From: Sphingomonadaceae bacterium
GTDB taxonomy: Bacteria; Pseudomonadota; Alphaproteobacteria; Sphingomonadales; Sphingomonadaceae
Direction of reading: 5' to 3'
Length of the DNA stretch: 43,887 nt
Assembly (NCBI GenBank): GCA_020847445.1
Contig: JADLBY010000098.1
Coordinates: forward strand, 1 to 43,887
The translations under genes and the position numbers were made by a program. Below, in pieces: positions 30,261 to 37,907 of this stretch; within the stretch, counting starts at the first letter, position 1; each line of letters opens with the position of its first letter. The notes under the pieces are model-generated. The model worked only from the letters and a program-made list of their open reading frames with translations, did not search any database and was not told the origin of the DNA.

Positions 30261-30326
30261 TTGGCAGACTGGCACGAGTAACAGCAAATCGGCTCTCCCC
30301 GGCCAAAAAGAGTGAATGGAACGCGC

Positions 30327-31613
30327 ATGACAAACAAGGTTGCGACTCTCAACTTGGGTGAACAGCAGATCGACCTGCCAATTATTTCGGGAACCGTTGG
30401 GCCGGATGTTCTGGATATCCGCAAACTCTATGCCCAGTCAGACTGCTTCACCTTTGACCCTGGCTTTACCTCTACAGCCAGCTGTGAATCGCAGCTGACC
30501 TATATTGACGGCGACGAAGGCGTCTTGCTGCATCGCGGCTATTCGATCGAGGAACTGTCCGAAGAGTCGAGCTTCATGGAAGTCTCCTATCTGCTGCTCA
30601 ACGGCGAATTGCCCTCGAAGCAGGAACTGGGCGAATTCAGCCACACCATTTCGCGGCACACGATGCTGCACGAACAGCTGGCGACATTCTATCGCGGCTT
30701 TCGTCGCGATGCGCACCCGATGGCGATCATGTGTGGCGTCGTCGGTGCTCTCTCCGCCTTTTATCATGACTCGACCGACATTTCGGATCCGGTGCAGCGC
30801 AAGATCGCCAGCCATCGCCTGATCGCGAAAATGCCGACCATCGCGGCCATGGCGTATAAATATTCAGTCGGTCAGCCGTTCATGTATCCGGACAACAAGC
30901 TGTCCTACACCGGCAACTTCCTGCGCATGACCTTTGGCGTTCCGGCGGAGGAATATGAGGTGATTCCCGCCGTCGAGCAGGCGCTCGACCGCATTTTCAT
31001 TCTGCATGCCGACCATGAGCAGAACGCGTCGACCTCGACCGTCCGCCTGGCGGGTTCGTCGGGTGCCAATCCCTTTGCCTGCATCGCAGCCGGTATCGCC
31101 TGCCTATGGGGCCCGGCGCATGGCGGGGCGAATGAAGCCGCGCTCAACATGCTGCGCGAAATCGGCACGCCCGACAAGATTCCCCATTATATCGAACGGG
31201 CAAAGGACAAGAATGATCCATTCCGTCTGATGGGCTTTGGCCACCGCGTGTACAAAAATTATGATCCGCGCGCGACCGTGATGCAGAAAACCGTGCGCGA
31301 AGTGCTGACGGCGCTGAAGGTCAATGATCCGATATTCGAAGTGGCCATGCAGCTTGAGGAAATGGCGCTGAACGACCCCTATTTCATCGAGAAAAAGCTG
31401 TTCCCGAACGTCGATTTCTATTCGGGCATCATCCTCTCGGCCATCGGCTTCCCGACGACAATGTTCACCGTTCTCTTCGCCCTTGCCCGTACCGTGGGCT
31501 GGGTTGCGCAGTGGAATGAAATGATTTCGGACCCCGGCCAGAAAATCGGCCGTCCCCGTCAGCTCTATACCGGGCCGACGGCACGTCCCTATGTGCCGGT
31601 CAGCAAGCGCTAA
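30327..31613 (+). CDS. gltA: Citrate synthase (type II)
   Basis: 428 aa, the TCA-cycle entry enzyme that condenses acetyl-CoA and oxaloacetate. The catalytic triad is visible: His in [15 protein letters not shown], His in [14 protein letters not shown], and Asp in PNVDFYSGI. The N-terminal beta-rich segment characteristic of the hexameric, NADH-sensitive Gram-negative type is present. ATG 30327 with GGAA upstream gives [11 protein letters not shown], the family start. Its stop overlaps the convergent histidine-kinase-like gene by four bases. Confidence 0.97.
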
Positions 31614-33010
31614 TCACTTTTGAAAGCGGGAAGGCTGAGCGTAAACTTCGCTCCGCCTTCCTGGCTCTCGCCAACGGTCAGATCGCCCTTCATCGCGCGC
31701 GCCAGTCGGCGTGAGATGTAAAGGCCAAGCCCGCTGCCGCCGTCACCGCTTCGCCCAAGCCGTTCGAATTTTTCGAAAACGCGATCCCGGTCTTCCTCGG
31801 CAACACCGCTTCCCTGATCCGAAACCGACAATGTCGGCGGCGTTGCTGAAATTTCGATCCGGACAGTGCTTCCACCCGGCGCATATCTGATGGCATTGCC
31901 GACAAGATTCAGCGCGATTTGCAGCACGCGCCGGAATTCAGCCAGCACTTCCACTGTCAGTTCGGTGGATGGCAGTTCCATGCTGATTTGATGGTCTGCC
32001 GCCTTCAACGCAAGCAAACCGGCGACGCGACGACAGATATCGCCAAGTTCGACCCGCTCCGCAGCAACCTTGAAGTCTTCACGATCGATGGCTTCGAGAT
32101 CCTCCAGATCGCTGACCAGATCTGACAAATGACGCGCGGCGGCGGCGATATCCAGTGCGTATCCGGTATAGTTTTCCTTGATCGGGCCGTTGACATGCGC
32201 ACCGATGGTTTCCGCATTGGCGATGATTCGACCCAGCGGGCGCCGGACGGCCGATGCAAAATGCAGCCCGAAACCGAACCGTTCGGGGGCGGGTTTCCTC
32301 TCGGCACCAGTCTCGGCTCTATCATCGGCATCCCCCGCCAATTGGCAGTCAAAGCCGAGCAGATCGCCTGCTTCGGAACGGAGCGGCGTGATGCTCAGTG
32401 CAAAGCGCCGCGTATCGTTCCGCATATGCGTCTGAAAGATACGTTCCGCATCCAGCCCGCCCGGCAGATCGGGCGCTTCGCCTTCGAACAGGAATATGTC
32501 ATTCAGGCTCCGGCCGATCCACCCGGCCTTCACAAACCGCAACGCTCCGGCGTCGATCTGCACCAATATGCCACGCTGATCCAGGCGGAGGTCCACCCTT
32601 TGCGACGGACGCAGGTCCGCCAATGCCGGATCCAATATCGGCCTTTCAAACCTTCGATGGGCCGCAGCCGCATCCTGCCATCCTGAAATGGACAGGTTAA
32701 CCCAGTCTGTTGCCCTTGCCACGCTGACCCACAATTCGACGTCATTCGCCCCTTCGGCAACGGTAACCGAACGCTCGATTTTCGCACCCGTGCGCCATAC
32801 CAGCATGCACAAGGCCAGCAGCGGCGGAACCGACAGGACACCTCCGTCGACACCTCCATTGGCCAGATGCAGCCGCAACAGATGTGGATCGGCAGACAGC
32901 AAGTGGCCATCCCGGTCTACGCGCCCCTGAATATCCAGCGCCAGAAAGGGCGAACGATTGCTCAACTCGGGCCGCCAGTCATTGCCGATTGCGCCGACCA
33001 TGCAAGACAT
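31610..33010 (-). CDS. Histidine-kinase-like protein lacking the phospho-accepting histidine
   Basis: 466 aa without transmembrane helices. It has an N-terminal sensory region (about 1-230, PAS-like), a HisKA-like dimerisation region (about 245-310) and a HATPase domain (about 345-462). The ATP-binding boxes look intact: N box [14 protein letters not shown]1 SDQGSGV, F box FEKFERL, G2 [13 protein letters not shown]. In the H box, where HELRTPL is expected, the protein reads SAVRRPL, so the phospho-His is Ser253 and the Glu is Ala; the codon is TCG at 32254-32252. It may bind ATP and sense without autophosphorylating on His, as DivL-type pseudokinases do. The start overlaps the upstream gene by about 49 nt (or 40 nt from ATG 33001). 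Confidence 0.88.
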
Positions 33011-33933
33011 TGGTTCAAGCTCGCTTCTGCGGTGACGGCGTCATAACCTTCCCACAGCCCGGCTTGTTCGACGCTCGCAGGCTGGTCGCCGCGCAAACAG
33101 CGGACAAGTTCGGCTGCATCGTCCGCACCATAGCCGCAAGCGCGAAGCACGGTCAGGAATGCCGCGATGTTGCCACTGTCGATGAAGCGATACAGCATGT
33201 CAGCGCCCAGCCCGCATTTCTTGGTCAGCCCGGCGATGAACATTGGCAGGCCGGCGGTGCGCGGGTCTGACAATTCATCCCACATCCCTTCCGGCAGAAA
33301 ATAGGCGAGCTTTGCCGCACTTGCCTGCAGCGAACGGCCTTCGTTGCGCGCTGACAACATCCGGTTGCACGCCTTGACATAAGCGTCGCGTGGCTGCGCC
33401 ATGCCCCGGTCGTCAAGCGTGCTGAGCACCGCAACGGTCCGCCAGGCAAGCGGATGCAGTATCTCTCCGGGAATTTGCATCATCAGTGCCTCGGGGTCGA
33501 AATTCTGCGCCAGACTGTCGGCGATCAGCACGGCACGGGCAGATTCGGACACGACCGGATTCGGATCATGCAGCAGCCGGGCGGGCAATTGCGCCCGAAC
33601 GTCGGCAAGACAGGGCTGCAGGGTCTTGCGGATGCGATTTTCCGCAACACGGGCGATGCAGAAATCGATCAGCGCTGTATCCCGCAGCAATCCGGACTTT
33701 GTGAGCGTATCCCAGCTTGCCGACTCCGTCGGGTGCGCGGGCGGGCGGATGCCGCCCTCAACCCCGATCACCAGCTGCTTCAATGCGAGACGGACCGAGG
33801 CCTGAAGCTCTTCGCTTGGCAGTTCGCCGCTTTTCGGAAACAGCAGGCAGGCGACATCATTTGCCTGCTGCTGCTCCATTGCAGCGCAGGCCGTCGCCGT
33901 GGCCAGTAACAGTGAATCTCCAGCGTCGGACAA
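32962..33933 (-). CDS. DUF2336-like helical protein
   Basis: 323 aa, predicted all-helical and soluble, with a pattern of short HEAT-like repeats. Segments such as LPARLLHDPNPVVSESARAV and MLYRFIDSGNIAAFLTVLR resemble DUF2336 proteins of alphaproteobacteria. No catalytic motif is visible. The start is TTG 33933; a stop codon lies a few codons upstream in frame, and the only downstream ATG (33879) would remove 18 residues. The gene is headed by a CtrA-type promoter and overlaps the histidine-kinase-like gene, so the two form one unit. The family name is by resemblance. Confidence 0.65.
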   Translation of the reverse strand: MSDAGDSLLLATATACAAMEQQQANDVACLLFPKSGELPSEELQASVRLALKQLVIGVEGGIRPPAHPTESASWDTLTKSGLLRDTALIDFCIARVAENRIRKTLQPCLADVRAQLPARLLHDPNPVVSESARAVLIADSLAQNFDPEALMMQIPGEILHPLAWRTVAVLSTLDDRGMAQPRDAYVKACNRMLSARNEGRSLQASAAKLAYFLPEGMWDELSDPRTAGLPMFIAGLTKKCGLGADMLYRFIDSGNIAAFLTVLRACGYGADDAAELVRCLRGDQPASVEQAGLWEGYDAVTAEASLNQCLAWSAQSAMTGGPS

Positions 33934-33965
33934 ATCGGGTCTCGATCAATTCAAACTAACGGCGA

Positions 33966-33999
33966 AATATAGGCTTTCTGCGGTTAATTTGCGTTTAAC
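33966..33999 (-). promoter_or_regulatory. CtrA-type promoter of the DUF2336/kinase-like operon
   Basis: The site 33984-33998 reads TTAA-N7-TTAA on both strands and extends to TTAACC on the minus strand, a perfect match to the CtrA consensus TTAA-N7-TTAAC. On the minus strand TATATT follows (33971-33966), 10 nt after TTAACC, the layout of CtrA-activated promoters. The predicted start near 33960 leaves a leader of about 27 nt. The box overlaps the stop codon of the upstream membrane protein gene. Confidence 0.55.
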
Positions 34000-35168
34000 T
34001 CTGATTTCCCTCGCATTGGCACAAGCTGAACCACAATCATCAGCACAATCAGCAGCTTGAGCGCAGCGACCGCATATCCCGCTCCGGCCATTATCGCGAG
34101 GATCAGTGCAAGCGTCAGCGGCGACAACAGCCTTGCCGCAATAGGCAATCGCGATGCGGCACCGTTGATGGCCAATCCCCCGAACGAGATTGTGAGGAAC
34201 AGGCCCTCGGCGCCCCCGACTTCTCCCCGCAGATTGACAAAGAGAGCGGCAAGCAGGACGGCAACGGCCAGCCAGCCCGCACCCCCCAAATTGCCAGCGC
34301 GATAATTGGCCTGGTTTGTGCGCCGTCGGACAGCCAATCCCGCGATGGCAACGAACCCTGACCAATAGCTGGCGACGGAAAATGCCAGGCCAGCCGAAAT
34401 TGCGGCCAATGCCGCAGCGGCGACAGGCATCCACTGCGCCAATGCCTGCCACCAGCCTGTTGAATTCCAACGGGAAATGGCGGCATCGCTCAACCGCTCC
34501 ACAGCAAGATCGAGCCAGCCGGACGTTGCTGTCGGCAGGCGGATTGCGCTTGCGATAACGGTCGCCGAATTGGCAGCACGACAATGGATGGCTACAGCCT
34601 CAGGCGATCGGTCTGGTCGCGACTGTGCAACCGGATATCCGGCCTGCAATGCCTTGCGCAGCAGAAACGAGTCGAGACTCCAGCCATCCGGCAGTTCGAT
34701 CGCATCGCCGATCAGCGACGGATCAAGAACGGCAATGCCCGCCCAACGGCGGTTCAGATCGATCCTTTCAAAATCGGCATATGCCGGATCCTCTGCCAAG
34801 CTGAAAATTGTCTCGGTCTGGGCCCTGATCACCTCATCCAGTACGGCAGGCGCAATCCATATTGCGGCATTCTGGACCAGAACCAGGTCGGTCTCCTGGG
34901 CAAAGCGGGCGGCCTCGGGGCCGCTGCGCAGCAAATCGACGGAAACACCCTGCTGTCGCAGGTTTTCCACCAAAGCCAGCAATTCACCCGGCACCACTTC
35001 CACAGCTATGGCGAACGCATCAATGCCAAGCGATCGCAGCGCCTGGATCGAGTGGAACAGTTGCGCATGCCCCGATATGTTTGGACGCAATAGGGACGAG
35101 CAATCCGCCTCGCTCAGACAGAGCAACGCGCGAGAAATGCCGCGTGTAGAAAGCTGGCCGCCATTCAT
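33984..35168 (-). CDS. Membrane protein with soluble nucleotidyltransferase-like N-terminal half
   Basis: 394 aa. Residues about 10-215 form a soluble alpha/beta region beginning ALLCLSEADCSSLLRPNISGHAQLFHS. This pattern recalls GT-A/nucleotidyltransferase proteins, although the usual metal-binding DxD-like site is not evident. FERIDLNRRWAGIAVLD is a striking conserved-looking segment. Residues about 245-385 contain five or six transmembrane helices (for example MPVAAAALAAISAGLAFSVA, GWLAVAVLLAALFVNL, LTLALILAIMAGAGYAVAAL). No signal peptide precedes the soluble part, so it should be cytoplasmic. I do not assign a substrate. It lies 53 bp after the HPt-like gene on the same strand. Confidence 0.75.
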   Translation of the reverse strand: MNGGQLSTRGISRALLCLSEADCSSLLRPNISGHAQLFHSIQALRSLGIDAFAIAVEVVPGELLALVENLRQQGVSVDLLRSGPEAARFAQETDLVLVQNAAIWIAPAVLDEVIRAQTETIFSLAEDPAYADFERIDLNRRWAGIAVLDPSLIGDAIELPDGWSLDSFLLRKALQAGYPVAQSRPDRSPEAVAIHCRAANSATVIASAIRLPTATSGWLDLAVERLSDAAISRWNSTGWWQALAQWMPVAAAALAAISAGLAFSVASYWSGFVAIAGLAVRRRTNQANYRAGNLGGAGWLAVAVLLAALFVNLRGEVGGAEGLFLTISFGGLAINGAASRLPIAARLLSPLTLALILAIMAGAGYAVAALKLLIVLMIVVQLVPMRGKSELNAN

Positions 35169-35221
35169 GGCATCGCTATGCAGCAGCCGCAGGAAATTCC
35201 AAGTGATATTGAACGAAGCTG

Positions 35222-35539
35222 TTAGCGGGAAACCAATCCGGCGGATTCAATCTGGCCGATAGCGCTGCCGATTTTCCTGAGAATGACGGGATCTCCGGGT
35301 GCGCCGACCGCCCCCTCTTCGGCCAATTGCATCAGTTCGGTTACGCCAAAGCTCGCCGCCAGACCCTTCAGCCGATAGCAGCTATATTGCCAATTGGCAT
35401 CGCACCGCGATCGGCCGAGCAAATCCAGTTGCCGCTTCGCACTATCGATGAAAGCCTTGCGCAATTCCGCAATCAGGGCGGCATCGTCACCTGCTGCGGC
35501 AGTCAAAGCTGTGTCAAAAGCGCCATAATCCATCGACAT
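35222..35539 (-). CDS. HPt-like protein lacking the phospho-accepting histidine
   Basis: 105 aa, helical, matching the HPt four-helix bundle. The diagnostic stretch HRLKGxAxxFG appears as YRLKGLAASFG, so the phospho-His is Tyr55 (TAT at 35377-35375, one base from CAT). The flanking Lys and Gly that normally support the His are kept, as is the downstream helix with LMQLAEEGA. It probably cannot act as a His phosphotransfer domain but may still dock a receiver or kinase domain. ATG 35539 or 35533 are both possible, with no ribosome site. The predicted transcript starts almost at the ATG, so translation may be leaderless. Confidence 0.78.
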   Translation of the reverse strand: MSMDYGAFDTALTAAAGDDAALIAELRKAFIDSAKRQLDLLGRSRCDANWQYSCYRLKGLAASFGVTELMQLAEEGAVGAPGDPVILRKIGSAIGQIESAGLVSR

Positions 35540-35546
35540 AATGCAC

Positions 35547-35568
35547 TATTTATCCACAGGCTGGTTAA
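35547..35568 (-). promoter_or_regulatory. Promoter of the HPt-like gene with TTAACC element
   Basis: On the minus strand: TTAACC (35568-35563), 10 nt, then TAAATA (35552-35547). This repeats the layout of the CtrA-type promoter at 33966-33999, including the preceding ACGCAAA block. The second TTAA half-site of a full CtrA box is degenerate here, so CtrA binding is only suggested. Confidence 0.4.
35550..35558 (+). promoter_or_regulatory. Perfect DnaA box
   Basis: TTATCCACA, an exact match to the high-affinity DnaA box. It overlaps the spacer and -10 of the HPt-like gene promoter and lies 52 bp ahead of the coiled-coil gene. A single box in a promoter suggests DnaA control of transcription; there is no cluster of boxes that would suggest an origin. 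Confidence 0.55.
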
Positions 35569-35609
35569 CTTTGCGTTTCAACCTACCTAAAAGATGGTAA
35601 ATATGTCCC

Positions 35610-37907
35610 ATGACGGCACATTCGAAAATAGTCGAAATCAATCGCTCATCGGGCGATCCCGCTTCTGCTGAACCGGTTCTGGATGCCCATGAACACCCGG
35701 ACGAACAACCGGGCGAGGCCGATGCGACGGCGGATCAGCCGGAAGATTATTGGTATGAAGACGAGGCCACCCCGCCGCGTTCCTGGGGCAAAATCCTGAT
35801 CGCATCCGCGCTTGCAATGGCGGCAATTGGCTGGACCGGCTTTTTCCTGTGGGCCTATCTGGGCGAAATCGTCGCCGTGCCGGAGCCGACAAGGATAAGC
35901 GGGCTGATTGTCGAATGGTCGGCTCCGATGGCGGTTATCGGCGTGCTGTGGCTGCTCGCCATGCGCATGAGCACGACGGAAGCCAAACGCTTTGGCGATG
36001 TCGCGATGCAGTTGCGGACCGAAAGCGATGCCCTGCAGGCGCGCATGCGCAATGTGAACGGCGAAATTGCGCTGGCACGGTCGTTCCTTGCGGAAAATGC
36101 CAAGGAACTTGAATCGATTGGCCGCCTGTCGGCGCAACGCCTTACCGAAGCGGCCTCCATATTGTCGGCTGCGCTCAATGATTCGGACGAACGGGCCAGG
36201 ACGCTGCAGGTCGCCAGCAATGCGGCGGTCAGCAATCTTGAACAGTTGCGCAACCACCTGCCCGTCGTCACCAGCGCGGCAAAGGATGCCACGAACCAGA
36301 TCGGGATTGCAGGCAACACCGCCCATGGGCAGATTCAGGCGATTATCGGCACGTTGAAGGACATGGACGAGAGCGCCGCCAAAGCCGGGAGCGCGCTTGA
36401 GACGCTGGACAGGCGCGTCATCACCAGCACGGCATCGCTCGACGAAAAGCTGGCAACGGCCAGCGGCCAGCTGACCCAGTCTGTTGAAGAGTCCGAACGC
36501 CGCGCGAATGCCCTGCTGACAGCGCTGTCGTCGGGCGTTGGCGAAGCCGAACAACGGCTGATCGAAACGGCCGACCAGCTGGATAGCCGGATGGCGGCGA
36601 GCCATCAGCGGCTGGAAGGCAATCTGGGCAGCCTGAGCGAAGCCATCGCCCATCTGGAAGCGGTAAGCGATGCGCAGGATTCAACCAGCAGGGCACTGCT
36701 GGAACGGGTCAAGATGTCGATTTCGGAATGCCGGGACGAGGTCGCCAAATTTGGGGACGATGCCAGCGACCAGATCGCAAAGCTGGCCTTCGCTGTGTCT
36801 GCGCTCAACGATCGCGGCGACGAACTGGATGGCAAGCTCGCGACAACCCGGCAGCAAACCGATGCGCTGATCGGCAAGGCAGGCGAAATGCGGGCCGATC
36901 TTGAAGCTATCACAAACGAAACCGCAGCAAATCTTGTGACGAAGCTTGACCGGGTTTCGGAAATGTTTGCCGAGGTTCAGGCTGCCTTTGCGACTGTCAA
37001 CGGAGAGCTTTCGCAGGCGGATTCGGGCACGGAAGCGCTGATGCAGTCGGTGGCGTCGCTCGAACGGCTCGTATTGACCCAGAGCGAAACTGTCGGCGAA
37101 TTGAGCGAGCGCTCCTCGGCCTTTCTCACTTCGCAGCACGAGCAGACCGACATGCTGTCGGCGGCAATTCTGCACACACGATCCGCGCTTGAGGAATTGT
37201 CGGGCATCGCCAACGAACAATTGGTGGCGTCGCTTCTCAGGGTTCGTGAAACGACAAGGCAGGCCGCCGAAGCAAGCCGCACGATTGTCGATGAAGAATT
37301 GGCCGACGTTGCCGACAAGATAAACGAACGGGGTCGGCTTGCCATCGAAACGGCCGTCGACGATCAGGTCAAGGCGCTCGATGCGGCCATGCGTGAGGCA
37401 TTTGACCGCAATCTGACGCTGGCTAGCGATGTCGAGGAACGGATCGGCGCACAGCTCAAACTGGTCGACGAAATGGCGAGCAATTTGGAGCAGCGGGTGA
37501 ACGAGGCGCACACATCATTCGCCGGTATCGACGATGAAGGCTTTGCCCGTCGCATGGCGTTGCTGACCGAATCGTTGAATTCCGCCGCGATCGACGTGGC
37601 AAAAATCCTGTCGAACGAAGTGACCGATACCGCCTGGGCCGCCTATCTGAAGGGCGATCGCGGGGTGTTCACCCGCCGCGCAGTCCGCCTGCTCGACAGC
37701 GGCGAAGCGAAGATTATCGCCGCCCATTATGACGACGACGCCGAATTCCGCGAGCATGTGAACCGCTATATCCACGACTTTGAATCGATGATGCGCGTTC
37801 TGCTGAGCACCCGCGATGGCAATGCGATTGGCGTGACGCTGCTGTCGTCCGACGTCGGCAAGCTGTATGTTGCGCTTGCACAGGCAATCGAGCGCCTGCG
37901 GAGCTAG
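35610..37907 (+). CDS. Membrane-anchored coiled-coil protein of unknown function
   Basis: 765 aa. An acidic cytoplasmic N-terminus (about 1-58) is followed by two transmembrane helices (about 60-82, ILIASALAMAAIGWTGFFLW region, and 98-115, APMAVIGVLWLLAM). The next ~530 residues are almost entirely heptad-like helix rich in Ala, Glu, Thr and Ser, resembling a long coiled coil or apolipoprotein-like array. A distinct C-terminal domain (about 665-765) contains DTAWAAYLKGDRGVFTRRA and IIAAHYDDDAEFREHVNRY, which looks globular and conserved. There are no enzymatic motifs. It is divergent from the HPt-like gene and shares its DnaA-box promoter region. Possible roles are polar or division scaffolding; this is inference only. 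Confidence 0.8.
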   Translation: MTAHSKIVEINRSSGDPASAEPVLDAHEHPDEQPGEADATADQPEDYWYEDEATPPRSWGKILIASALAMAAIGWTGFFLWAYLGEIVAVPEPTRISGLIVEWSAPMAVIGVLWLLAMRMSTTEAKRFGDVAMQLRTESDALQARMRNVNGEIALARSFLAENAKELESIGRLSAQRLTEAASILSAALNDSDERARTLQVASNAAVSNLEQLRNHLPVVTSAAKDATNQIGIAGNTAHGQIQAIIGTLKDMDESAAKAGSALETLDRRVITSTASLDEKLATASGQLTQSVEESERRANALLTALSSGVGEAEQRLIETADQLDSRMAASHQRLEGNLGSLSEAIAHLEAVSDAQDSTSRALLERVKMSISECRDEVAKFGDDASDQIAKLAFAVSALNDRGDELDGKLATTRQQTDALIGKAGEMRADLEAITNETAANLVTKLDRVSEMFAEVQAAFATVNGELSQADSGTEALMQSVASLERLVLTQSETVGELSERSSAFLTSQHEQTDMLSAAILHTRSALEELSGIANEQLVASLLRVRETTRQAAEASRTIVDEELADVADKINERGRLAIETAVDDQVKALDAAMREAFDRNLTLASDVEERIGAQLKLVDEMASNLEQRVNEAHTSFAGIDDEGFARRMALLTESLNSAAIDVAKILSNEVTDTAWAAYLKGDRGVFTRRAVRLLDSGEAKIIAAHYDDDAEFREHVNRYIHDFESMMRVLLSTRDGNAIGVTLLSSDVGKLYVALAQAIERLRS

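Follow-up and report, generated by a model that had tools for sequence, protein, structure and literature searches.

The 43,887-nucleotide contig JADLBY010000098.1 of a Sphingomonadaceae bacterium (assembly GCA_020847445.1), hereafter the window, carries a cluster of five genes. They encode a histidine-kinase-like (HK-like) protein, a divergent DUF2336-family protein, a nucleotidyltransferase-like membrane protein (NT), a histidine phosphotransfer-like (HPt-like) protein and a membrane-anchored coiled-coil protein (CC). The window is one whole contig of an assembly that totals 3.15 Mb, and the named close relatives of its genome are Sphingorhabdus. The five open reading frames and the CtrA and DnaA boxes described by a first-pass annotation of the sequence all lie where it had placed them, and its reading of Tyr55 in the HPt-like protein and Ser253 in the HK-like protein is confirmed. 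The features are:

31610-33010, minus strand: HK-like pseudokinase of 466 aa, with Ser253 in place of the phospho-His and intact ATP-binding boxes
32962-33933, minus strand: divergent DUF2336-family protein, likely with a TTG start at 33933
33983-33999, no strand: CtrA box TTAA-N7-TTAA(C), preceding the DUF2336-HK operon and overlapping the NT stop codon
33984-35168, minus strand: NT, an apparently degenerate NTP-transferase/CDP-alcohol phosphatidyltransferase-like membrane protein
35222-35539, minus strand: HPt-like protein, 105 aa, Tyr55 at the phospho-His position
35550-35558, plus strand: DnaA box TTATCCACA in the HPt/CC intergenic region
35564-35579, plus strand: conserved element GTTAACTTTGCGTTTC in the spacer of the divergent HPt-CC pair, resembling a CtrA half-site
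35610-37907, plus strand: CC, 765 aa, with a GPR/RgsE-type C-terminal domain
37506-37904, plus strand: conserved C-terminal domain of CC, common to a Sinorhizobium meliloti protein that fits RgsE

The start of the HK-like gene overlaps the end of the DUF2336-like gene, and in the genus the locus runs gltA, HK, DUF2336-like, NT, HPt, CC, DUF1467, rnJ, coaX. On the sequence comparisons presented here, it is the locus of a GPR/RgsE-related scaffold whose phosphorelay partners lost their phosphate chemistry across most of the family.

The coiled-coil protein and its GPR/RgsE relatives

CC has two N-terminal hydrophobic segments, with hydropathy peaks at 62-80 and 99-117. Its Pfam matches are of coiled-coil type only and all below cut-off; that to the apolipoprotein repeats PF01442 (E 7.6e-5, 23 bits for a cut-off of 90) has likewise sub-threshold counterparts in seven of 14 control genomes. 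Residues 644-763 match a 2,089-aa S. meliloti protein annotated as kinesin (tblastn E 2e-12, 36.7%), encoded close to cytochrome bc1 genes on a 3.7-Mb record labelled as plasmid pSymB. RgsE of this species, a GPR homologue with two transmembrane helices, is described as 2,089 aa long (PMC7327166); from its length, species and architecture, the matched protein would be RgsE. Divergent from its gene, and upstream of it, lies an Hpt-domain gene that keeps the histidine (AHRLKG). CC is thus taken, by sequence, to share the GPR/RgsE C-terminal domain, and at 765 aa against about 2,100 aa for GPR/RgsE proper it is not classed as a GPR proper. The first-pass view of a five-gene unit of undescribed kind gives way here, as the core of the unit shares this domain with known scaffolds and has an apparently old HPt neighbour. 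The C terminus is reported to be essential to GPR function (PMC8262873).

The C-terminal domain occurs in one copy per genome in 232 of 246 genomes of the order, that is, in 163/163 of the window's family and 69/83 of the others, and in 80 of 240 genomes of the class (three of the window's family; G374 has two copies). Homologues of RgsE have been reported in Rhizobiales, with more distant ones in Emcibacterales and Rhodospirillales, in a paper whose main text contains neither the word Hpt nor the word Sphingomonadales (PMC7327166). The present counts extend the relatives of the growth-pole ring beyond that distribution, to a nearly order-wide single-copy gene. Of the class, 20 loci were compared: two have an HPt gene on the opposite strand upstream of CC, and in a third the gene before CC encodes a hybrid kinase with an HPt motif. 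In the latter (G471, L135 6178-8847) this large kinase lies 60 bases upstream of CC on the same strand.

A proline-rich stretch, reported for GPR, was tried as a marker of CC and rejected: only two of 28 proteins exceed 5% proline in the 110 residues before the C-terminal domain, and a third reaches 5%. A PDB sequence search with the C-terminal profile returned nothing significant. Two records labelled as plasmids, NZ_CP155749.1 and CP090106.1, carry core genes (nuo, gltA, rnJ; the bc1 complex) and look like mislabelled chromosomes or chromids.

Phosphorelay folds without acceptor residues

Tyr55 of the HPt-like protein stands in the motif CYRLKG, where HPt phosphotransferases carry histidine (HxLKG). 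The protein matches PF01627 of Pfam weakly (E 0.0092, below cut-off). Its AlphaFold model is helical (pLDDT 89) and gave no Foldseek match in the PDB at E <=0.001, though HPt structures were among the best matches, and a PDB sequence search with the profile returned nothing significant. The profile is related to that of the His-bearing HPt proteins found beside CC in sister families (hhalign 96.8%, E 3e-10). By these comparisons the protein is an HPt homologue, and we do not class it as a phosphotransferase. It is the most conserved of the pieces of the five genes, second to the CC C-terminal domain: intact copies in the genus are 58-74% identical to that of the window, and 37 positions are invariant across 20 genomes. 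The profile finds it in 112 of the 246 order genomes; of these matches, two from beyond the family are weak, and that in G008 is a fragment of 35 residues.

The loss of the acceptor is general. In 57 labelled genomes read, the HPt position holds W 21, M 14, L 13, Y 3 or F 2 times, Q, R and E once each, and histidine in G089 alone. Ser253 of the HK-like protein lies in FASAVRRPL, at the phospho-His position of the H box, and none of the orthologues from 67 genomes (47 plus 20 read, some copies broken) has the histidine. That close relatives might keep both histidines was the first-pass annotation's own counter-case; in 67/67 HK-like and 56/57 HPt-like proteins the residue is absent. In Pfam, the window's HK-like protein matches HATPase_c (E 1.2e-24) and, below cut-off, HisKA (E 0.0072). 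Its best His-bearing relatives in the order are ordinary kinases with HEL[RK]TP, which match it in the kinase core only.

Sister families retain what looks like the earlier arrangement. A His-bearing HPt occupies the same divergent place beside CC, followed by a 183-aa receiver and then by a second HPt motif, carried by a protein of about 170-200 aa. This second HPt falls below the PF01627 cut-off (E 4e-4) and is weakly related to the His-bearing HPt (26.6%); no relation was detected between it and the window's HPt. At what is presumably the phospho-Asp place of the receiver, judged by alignment to the CheY motif, Asn stands in 18 of 22 loci (L161 8580-9131, L174 9553-10104 and 20 further loci), and Asp is kept in four, all of family f8. 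For G050, whose contig ends, the receiver is not shown to be next to CC.

Genome G089, of the window's own family, has the second HPt, the receiver, an HPt with histidine and CC in this order. Its HPt motif, THRLKGLAASIGA, is close to the xRLKGLAASFGA of the family. A sample of 60 genomes of the order includes 14 of the window's family; among these, the receiver (threshold E 1e-15) and the second HPt are found in G089 but not in the remaining 13. The window's genome likewise yielded no 183-aa receiver at E 1e-15. G089 and the sample together indicate that loss of the histidine goes with loss of the receiver and the second HPt. A tree built on the C-terminal region of CC places G089 outside the remaining 35 rows of the family, which group together with support 99/99; G089 itself forms a long branch, and its placement is unsure. 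Since this deep branch and the sister families keep the histidine, its loss in the HPt is, by sequence comparison, shared and derived.

Several sister loci encode a DUF2336 protein immediately downstream of CC, on the opposite strand. The window's own DUF2336-like protein has no PF10098 match and no Pfam family over cut-off, but the first-pass description as DUF2336-like holds: the member in G156 matches PF10098 (7.4e-17, 62.1 bits for a cut-off of 34.6), and profile-profile comparison with a DUF2336 profile gives 91.7%, E 7.8e-7. The repeated meeting of DUF2336 and CC, in sister loci and, at a different position, in the window's cluster, with related profiles, suggests a working link. A literature search for DUF2336 returned no papers.

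The window's NT protein has no Pfam match, and the DGxxAR-type motif, a hallmark of CDP-alcohol phosphatidyltransferases, was not seen in it. Among four relatives scanned, two pass PF01066 and two have NTP_transf_3 below cut-off, one having both and one neither. By eye, the motif is present in two of 28 aligned rows (G188 and G264) and was not seen in the other 26, three of which were scanned and gave no PF01066 match. The NT proteins beside CC in G264 (L176 8391-9728) and G188 (L177 9028-10383) have a CDP-alcohol phosphatidyltransferase domain over the Pfam cut-off. From these sequences, NT looks like a degenerate lipid-type enzyme, a pseudoenzyme too, and not just the nucleotidyltransferase-like protein of the first-pass description.

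Spread of the cluster and its control regions

Within the genus, 24 of 36 relatives have an HK orthologue, and at seven of these 24 loci tblastn detected no DUF2336-like gene. Contig ends interrupt the loci of G036, G012 and G002. The HPt is truncated in G008, G015 and G024, where HK is also interrupted, and DUF1467, rnJ and coaX are not within 6 kb beyond CC in G001. The remaining 12 relatives are partner-poor, with assemblies of 1.8-2.4 Mb (G003, G004, G006, G007, G010, G017, G018, G020, G021, G027, G033, G034); in G034 (L150 4986-7110), comEC matches appear in several frames, as if the gene were broken.

We read 32 further loci of the family, chosen for genus spread and partly for an HPt not found earlier. 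HPt is next to CC in 17 of them and HK is at the locus in 21 (one a partial match); several have no gltA or DUF1467-rnJ-coaX in the stretch read. Sphingomonas parapaucimobilis YK209 has HK, two hypothetical proteins, Hpt and a long protein between citrate synthase and RNase J. In the window, the citrate synthase gene gltA (30312-31613) is convergent with the HK gene, with an overlap of four bases, and gltA is a neighbour of HK in many family loci. A citrate synthase of Caulobacter is reported to have a cell-cycle role separate from its enzyme activity (PMC7083601).

Three other genera have a full-length HK orthologue in 28/28 genomes. Among 20 of these with DNA read, 16 have a DUF2336-like gene (10) or gltA (11) within 1.5 kb of HK; of 15 loci with HK remote from CC or on a different contig, five have DUF2336-like beside it. 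Because the cluster splits and the losses are independent, we argue that HPt-CC and DUF2336-HK are two sub-units able to work apart. Co-conservation of the five genes, the second check set by the first-pass annotation, has a mixed outcome: they occur together in many genera, but HK is not near CC in 20 of the 28 genomes and the HPt has been lost without HK in several.

For the CtrA box TTAATTTGCGTTTAAC at 33984, the number expected by chance in the whole window is 0.04. Between NT and the DUF2336-HK operon, a perfect TTAA-N7-TTAA is present in 18 of 21 genus genomes, with spacer and position varying, against 0.25 expected from resampled sequences and 1/2,078 control segments of the same loci. 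This conservation backs the proposal, already made from the window alone, that the operon may be under CtrA control. A search of the window's own genome with one arbitrary CtrA-like string found nothing.

The DnaA box TTATCCACA at 35550 is less secure. With 0.11 expected in the window, and at least one in 11 of 100 shuffles, it could in the window alone be a chance occurrence. The first-pass DnaA site finds some backing in the HPt/CC intergenic regions of the genus, nine of 21 of which have a perfect box at one or other of two positions, but none was seen in 17 other family loci. The neighbouring element GTTAACTTTGCGTTTC has the pattern GTTAA[CG]TTT[GA]CGTTTC, kept exactly by 18 of 21 genus genomes and slightly altered in the remaining three.

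Readings of the cluster and known systems

What do phosphorelay folds do once their acceptors are gone? With the acceptor residues lost, the HPt conserved and the ATP boxes of the kinase kept, the simplest reading is that the folds were kept for binding. We propose a former phosphorelay at a GPR-type scaffold, whose parts would now act by binding, and put the chances of this reading at about even. CC would be the Sphingomonadales relative of GPR and RgsE, membrane-anchored coiled-coil scaffolds of the growth pole, and would probably sit at a cell pole, with the divergent HPt gene as a long-standing neighbour. Ancestrally, HPt, receiver and second HPt beside the scaffold likely formed a phosphorelay. 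The receiver would have lost its phospho-Asp first, in the majority of the sister families. Next, with G089 already split off, the stem of the Sphingorhabdus family would have lost both receiver and second HPt, as well as the histidine of the HPt. The family's HK, deprived of its histidine and still equipped with ATP-binding boxes, would have been paired with the divergent DUF2336 protein behind a CtrA box. The HPt-like protein, with a mostly hydrophobic or aromatic residue for histidine, may dock on the scaffold or on the dimer of dimerization and histidine phosphotransfer (DHp) helices of the HK-like protein. The kinase could act as an ATP-dependent clamp and the DUF2336 protein with it, so that ATP binding and a CtrA-timed supply of HK and DUF2336 would set the state of the scaffold without phosphate transfer.

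Several observations weigh against this proposal. The 12 partner-poor relatives in the genus keep just NT and CC intact (12/12 each), and the other three genes were seen as remnants in G021, G027 and G017 only; the scaffold thus does not need its partners, which are lost more easily. HPt is absent beside CC with HK at the locus in G026, G104, G109, G128, G148, G181, G193 and G247, and in 17 of the 20 class loci no HPt was found within 5 kb of CC. In the 28 genomes of other genera, HK is within 5 kb of the CC domain in eight; in 14 it shares the contig at a greater distance, and in six the two lie on different contigs. A perfect CtrA box occurs in only two of 21 other family loci; ten of the other 19 have one with C or A for the first T, as judged by eye and without a control. 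Finally, the best Foldseek match of the HPt-like model is not significant (E 0.088, prob 1.00), and the structure model of the CC C-terminal domain is poor (pLDDT 47).

An alternative is that the HK-like protein acts mainly on the CtrA phosphorelay, as DivL does: it would bind CckA or a DivK-like receiver through its DHp helices and form a CtrA feedback arm, closeness to the scaffold being secondary. DivL, which has Tyr at the phospho-His position, is likewise a HisKA-HATPase protein without phospho-His in a CtrA context. The CtrA box before DUF2336-HK and the distance of HK from CC in 20/28 genomes are in line with such a role, as is the NCBIfam DivJ model: four members were scanned, and among the matches to the core it ranks third for two of them, 13th and 15th for the rest. 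The DivJ-PleC-DivK set is described as degenerate or lost in Sphingomonadales, which leaves room for a substitute (PMC2877005). However, the NCBIfam scores are far below cut-offs, and kinship with DivL was sought and not detected: the solved DivL structure (4q20) ranks 15th of 54 matches, generic kinases scoring higher. The HK-like protein shows no special sequence affinity to DivL and nothing ties it to DivL in particular, contrary to the parallel first drawn; we regard this alternative as unlikely.

Could the HK-like protein still be an enzyme, its ATPase domain phosphorylating or dephosphorylating another protein or residue? The key residues of the N, G1, F and G2 boxes are invariant in 25 aligned family members, which speaks for this. 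Against this, the glutamate that adjoins the histidine in HELRTP is lost too (AVRRP, VLRQP). The residues replacing the histidine are P 33, R 12, G 9, S 5, N 2, A 2, T 2, D 1 and K 1, so that Pro accounts for 33 of 67 and the family as a whole retains neither Ser nor Thr nor Asp at the site. We consider such activity quite improbable.

That HPt, HK, DUF2336 and NT are decaying leftovers beside a needed scaffold gene would suit the truncated HPt and interrupted HK of G008, G015 and G024, the three partners gone or in remnants in 12 genomes and the NT motif confined to 2/28 rows, but the invariant positions of the HPt-like protein, the HK orthologue kept in 28/28 genomes even away from CC and the CtrA box kept despite a varying spacer make this very unlikely.

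Returning to conversion from relay to binding, a wider version can be formulated. GPR-type scaffolds across Alphaproteobacteria would carry a local phosphorelay of their own (HPt, receiver, second HPt, DUF2336). In one entire family, stepwise conversion would have made of it a binding switch that works without phosphate, is timed by ATP and CtrA and determines the architecture of pole or envelope; the HPt would then be the missing regulatory input of the rhizobial growth-pole ring. We offer this as a possibility and lean against it in its full extent. The loci would also form a natural series, from phosphorylatable through half-dead to dead, along which one could trace how phosphorelay folds become binding proteins.

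Several known systems bear comparison. TipN of Caulobacter is membrane-anchored. Like CC, it is a coiled-coil polar scaffold (PMC7083601), the likeness being one of description alone. The pseudo-receiver of ShkA is a receiver fold without phosphotransfer that serves binding (PMC7010744), as may the sister-family receiver, with mostly Asn at the Asp site; the former, however, is a domain within a kinase and the latter a separate 183-aa protein. ShpA, the phosphotransferase of the ShkA-ShpA-TacA pathway (PMC7010744), is the best solved match (2ooc, E 3.4e-16) of the His-bearing HPt beside CC in sister families. The window's HPt differs in that its histidine is absent, and 2ooc is not among the matches listed for its profile at E 10.

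The closest relatives remain GPR of Agrobacterium and RgsE of Sinorhizobium, which share with CC two N-terminal hydrophobic segments, a helical middle and a homologous C-terminal domain. CC is far shorter than these proteins (765 against 2,089-2,115 aa), and the window's locus differs from theirs in its gltA/rnJ, HK-like, DUF2336-like and NT neighbours and in an HPt without histidine. Sphingomonads are, to our knowledge, not known as polar growers. Among the papers listed by our search, which leaves subscription literature aside, none deals with an HPt at a GPR gene or with this cluster. As in the window, the S. meliloti RgsE candidate has a divergent Hpt gene upstream. An HPt gene is thus named here as a neighbour of the growth-pole ring relatives, in Sinorhizobium too, and the control of GPR-type scaffolds becomes directly testable in laboratory sphingomonads and rhizobia.

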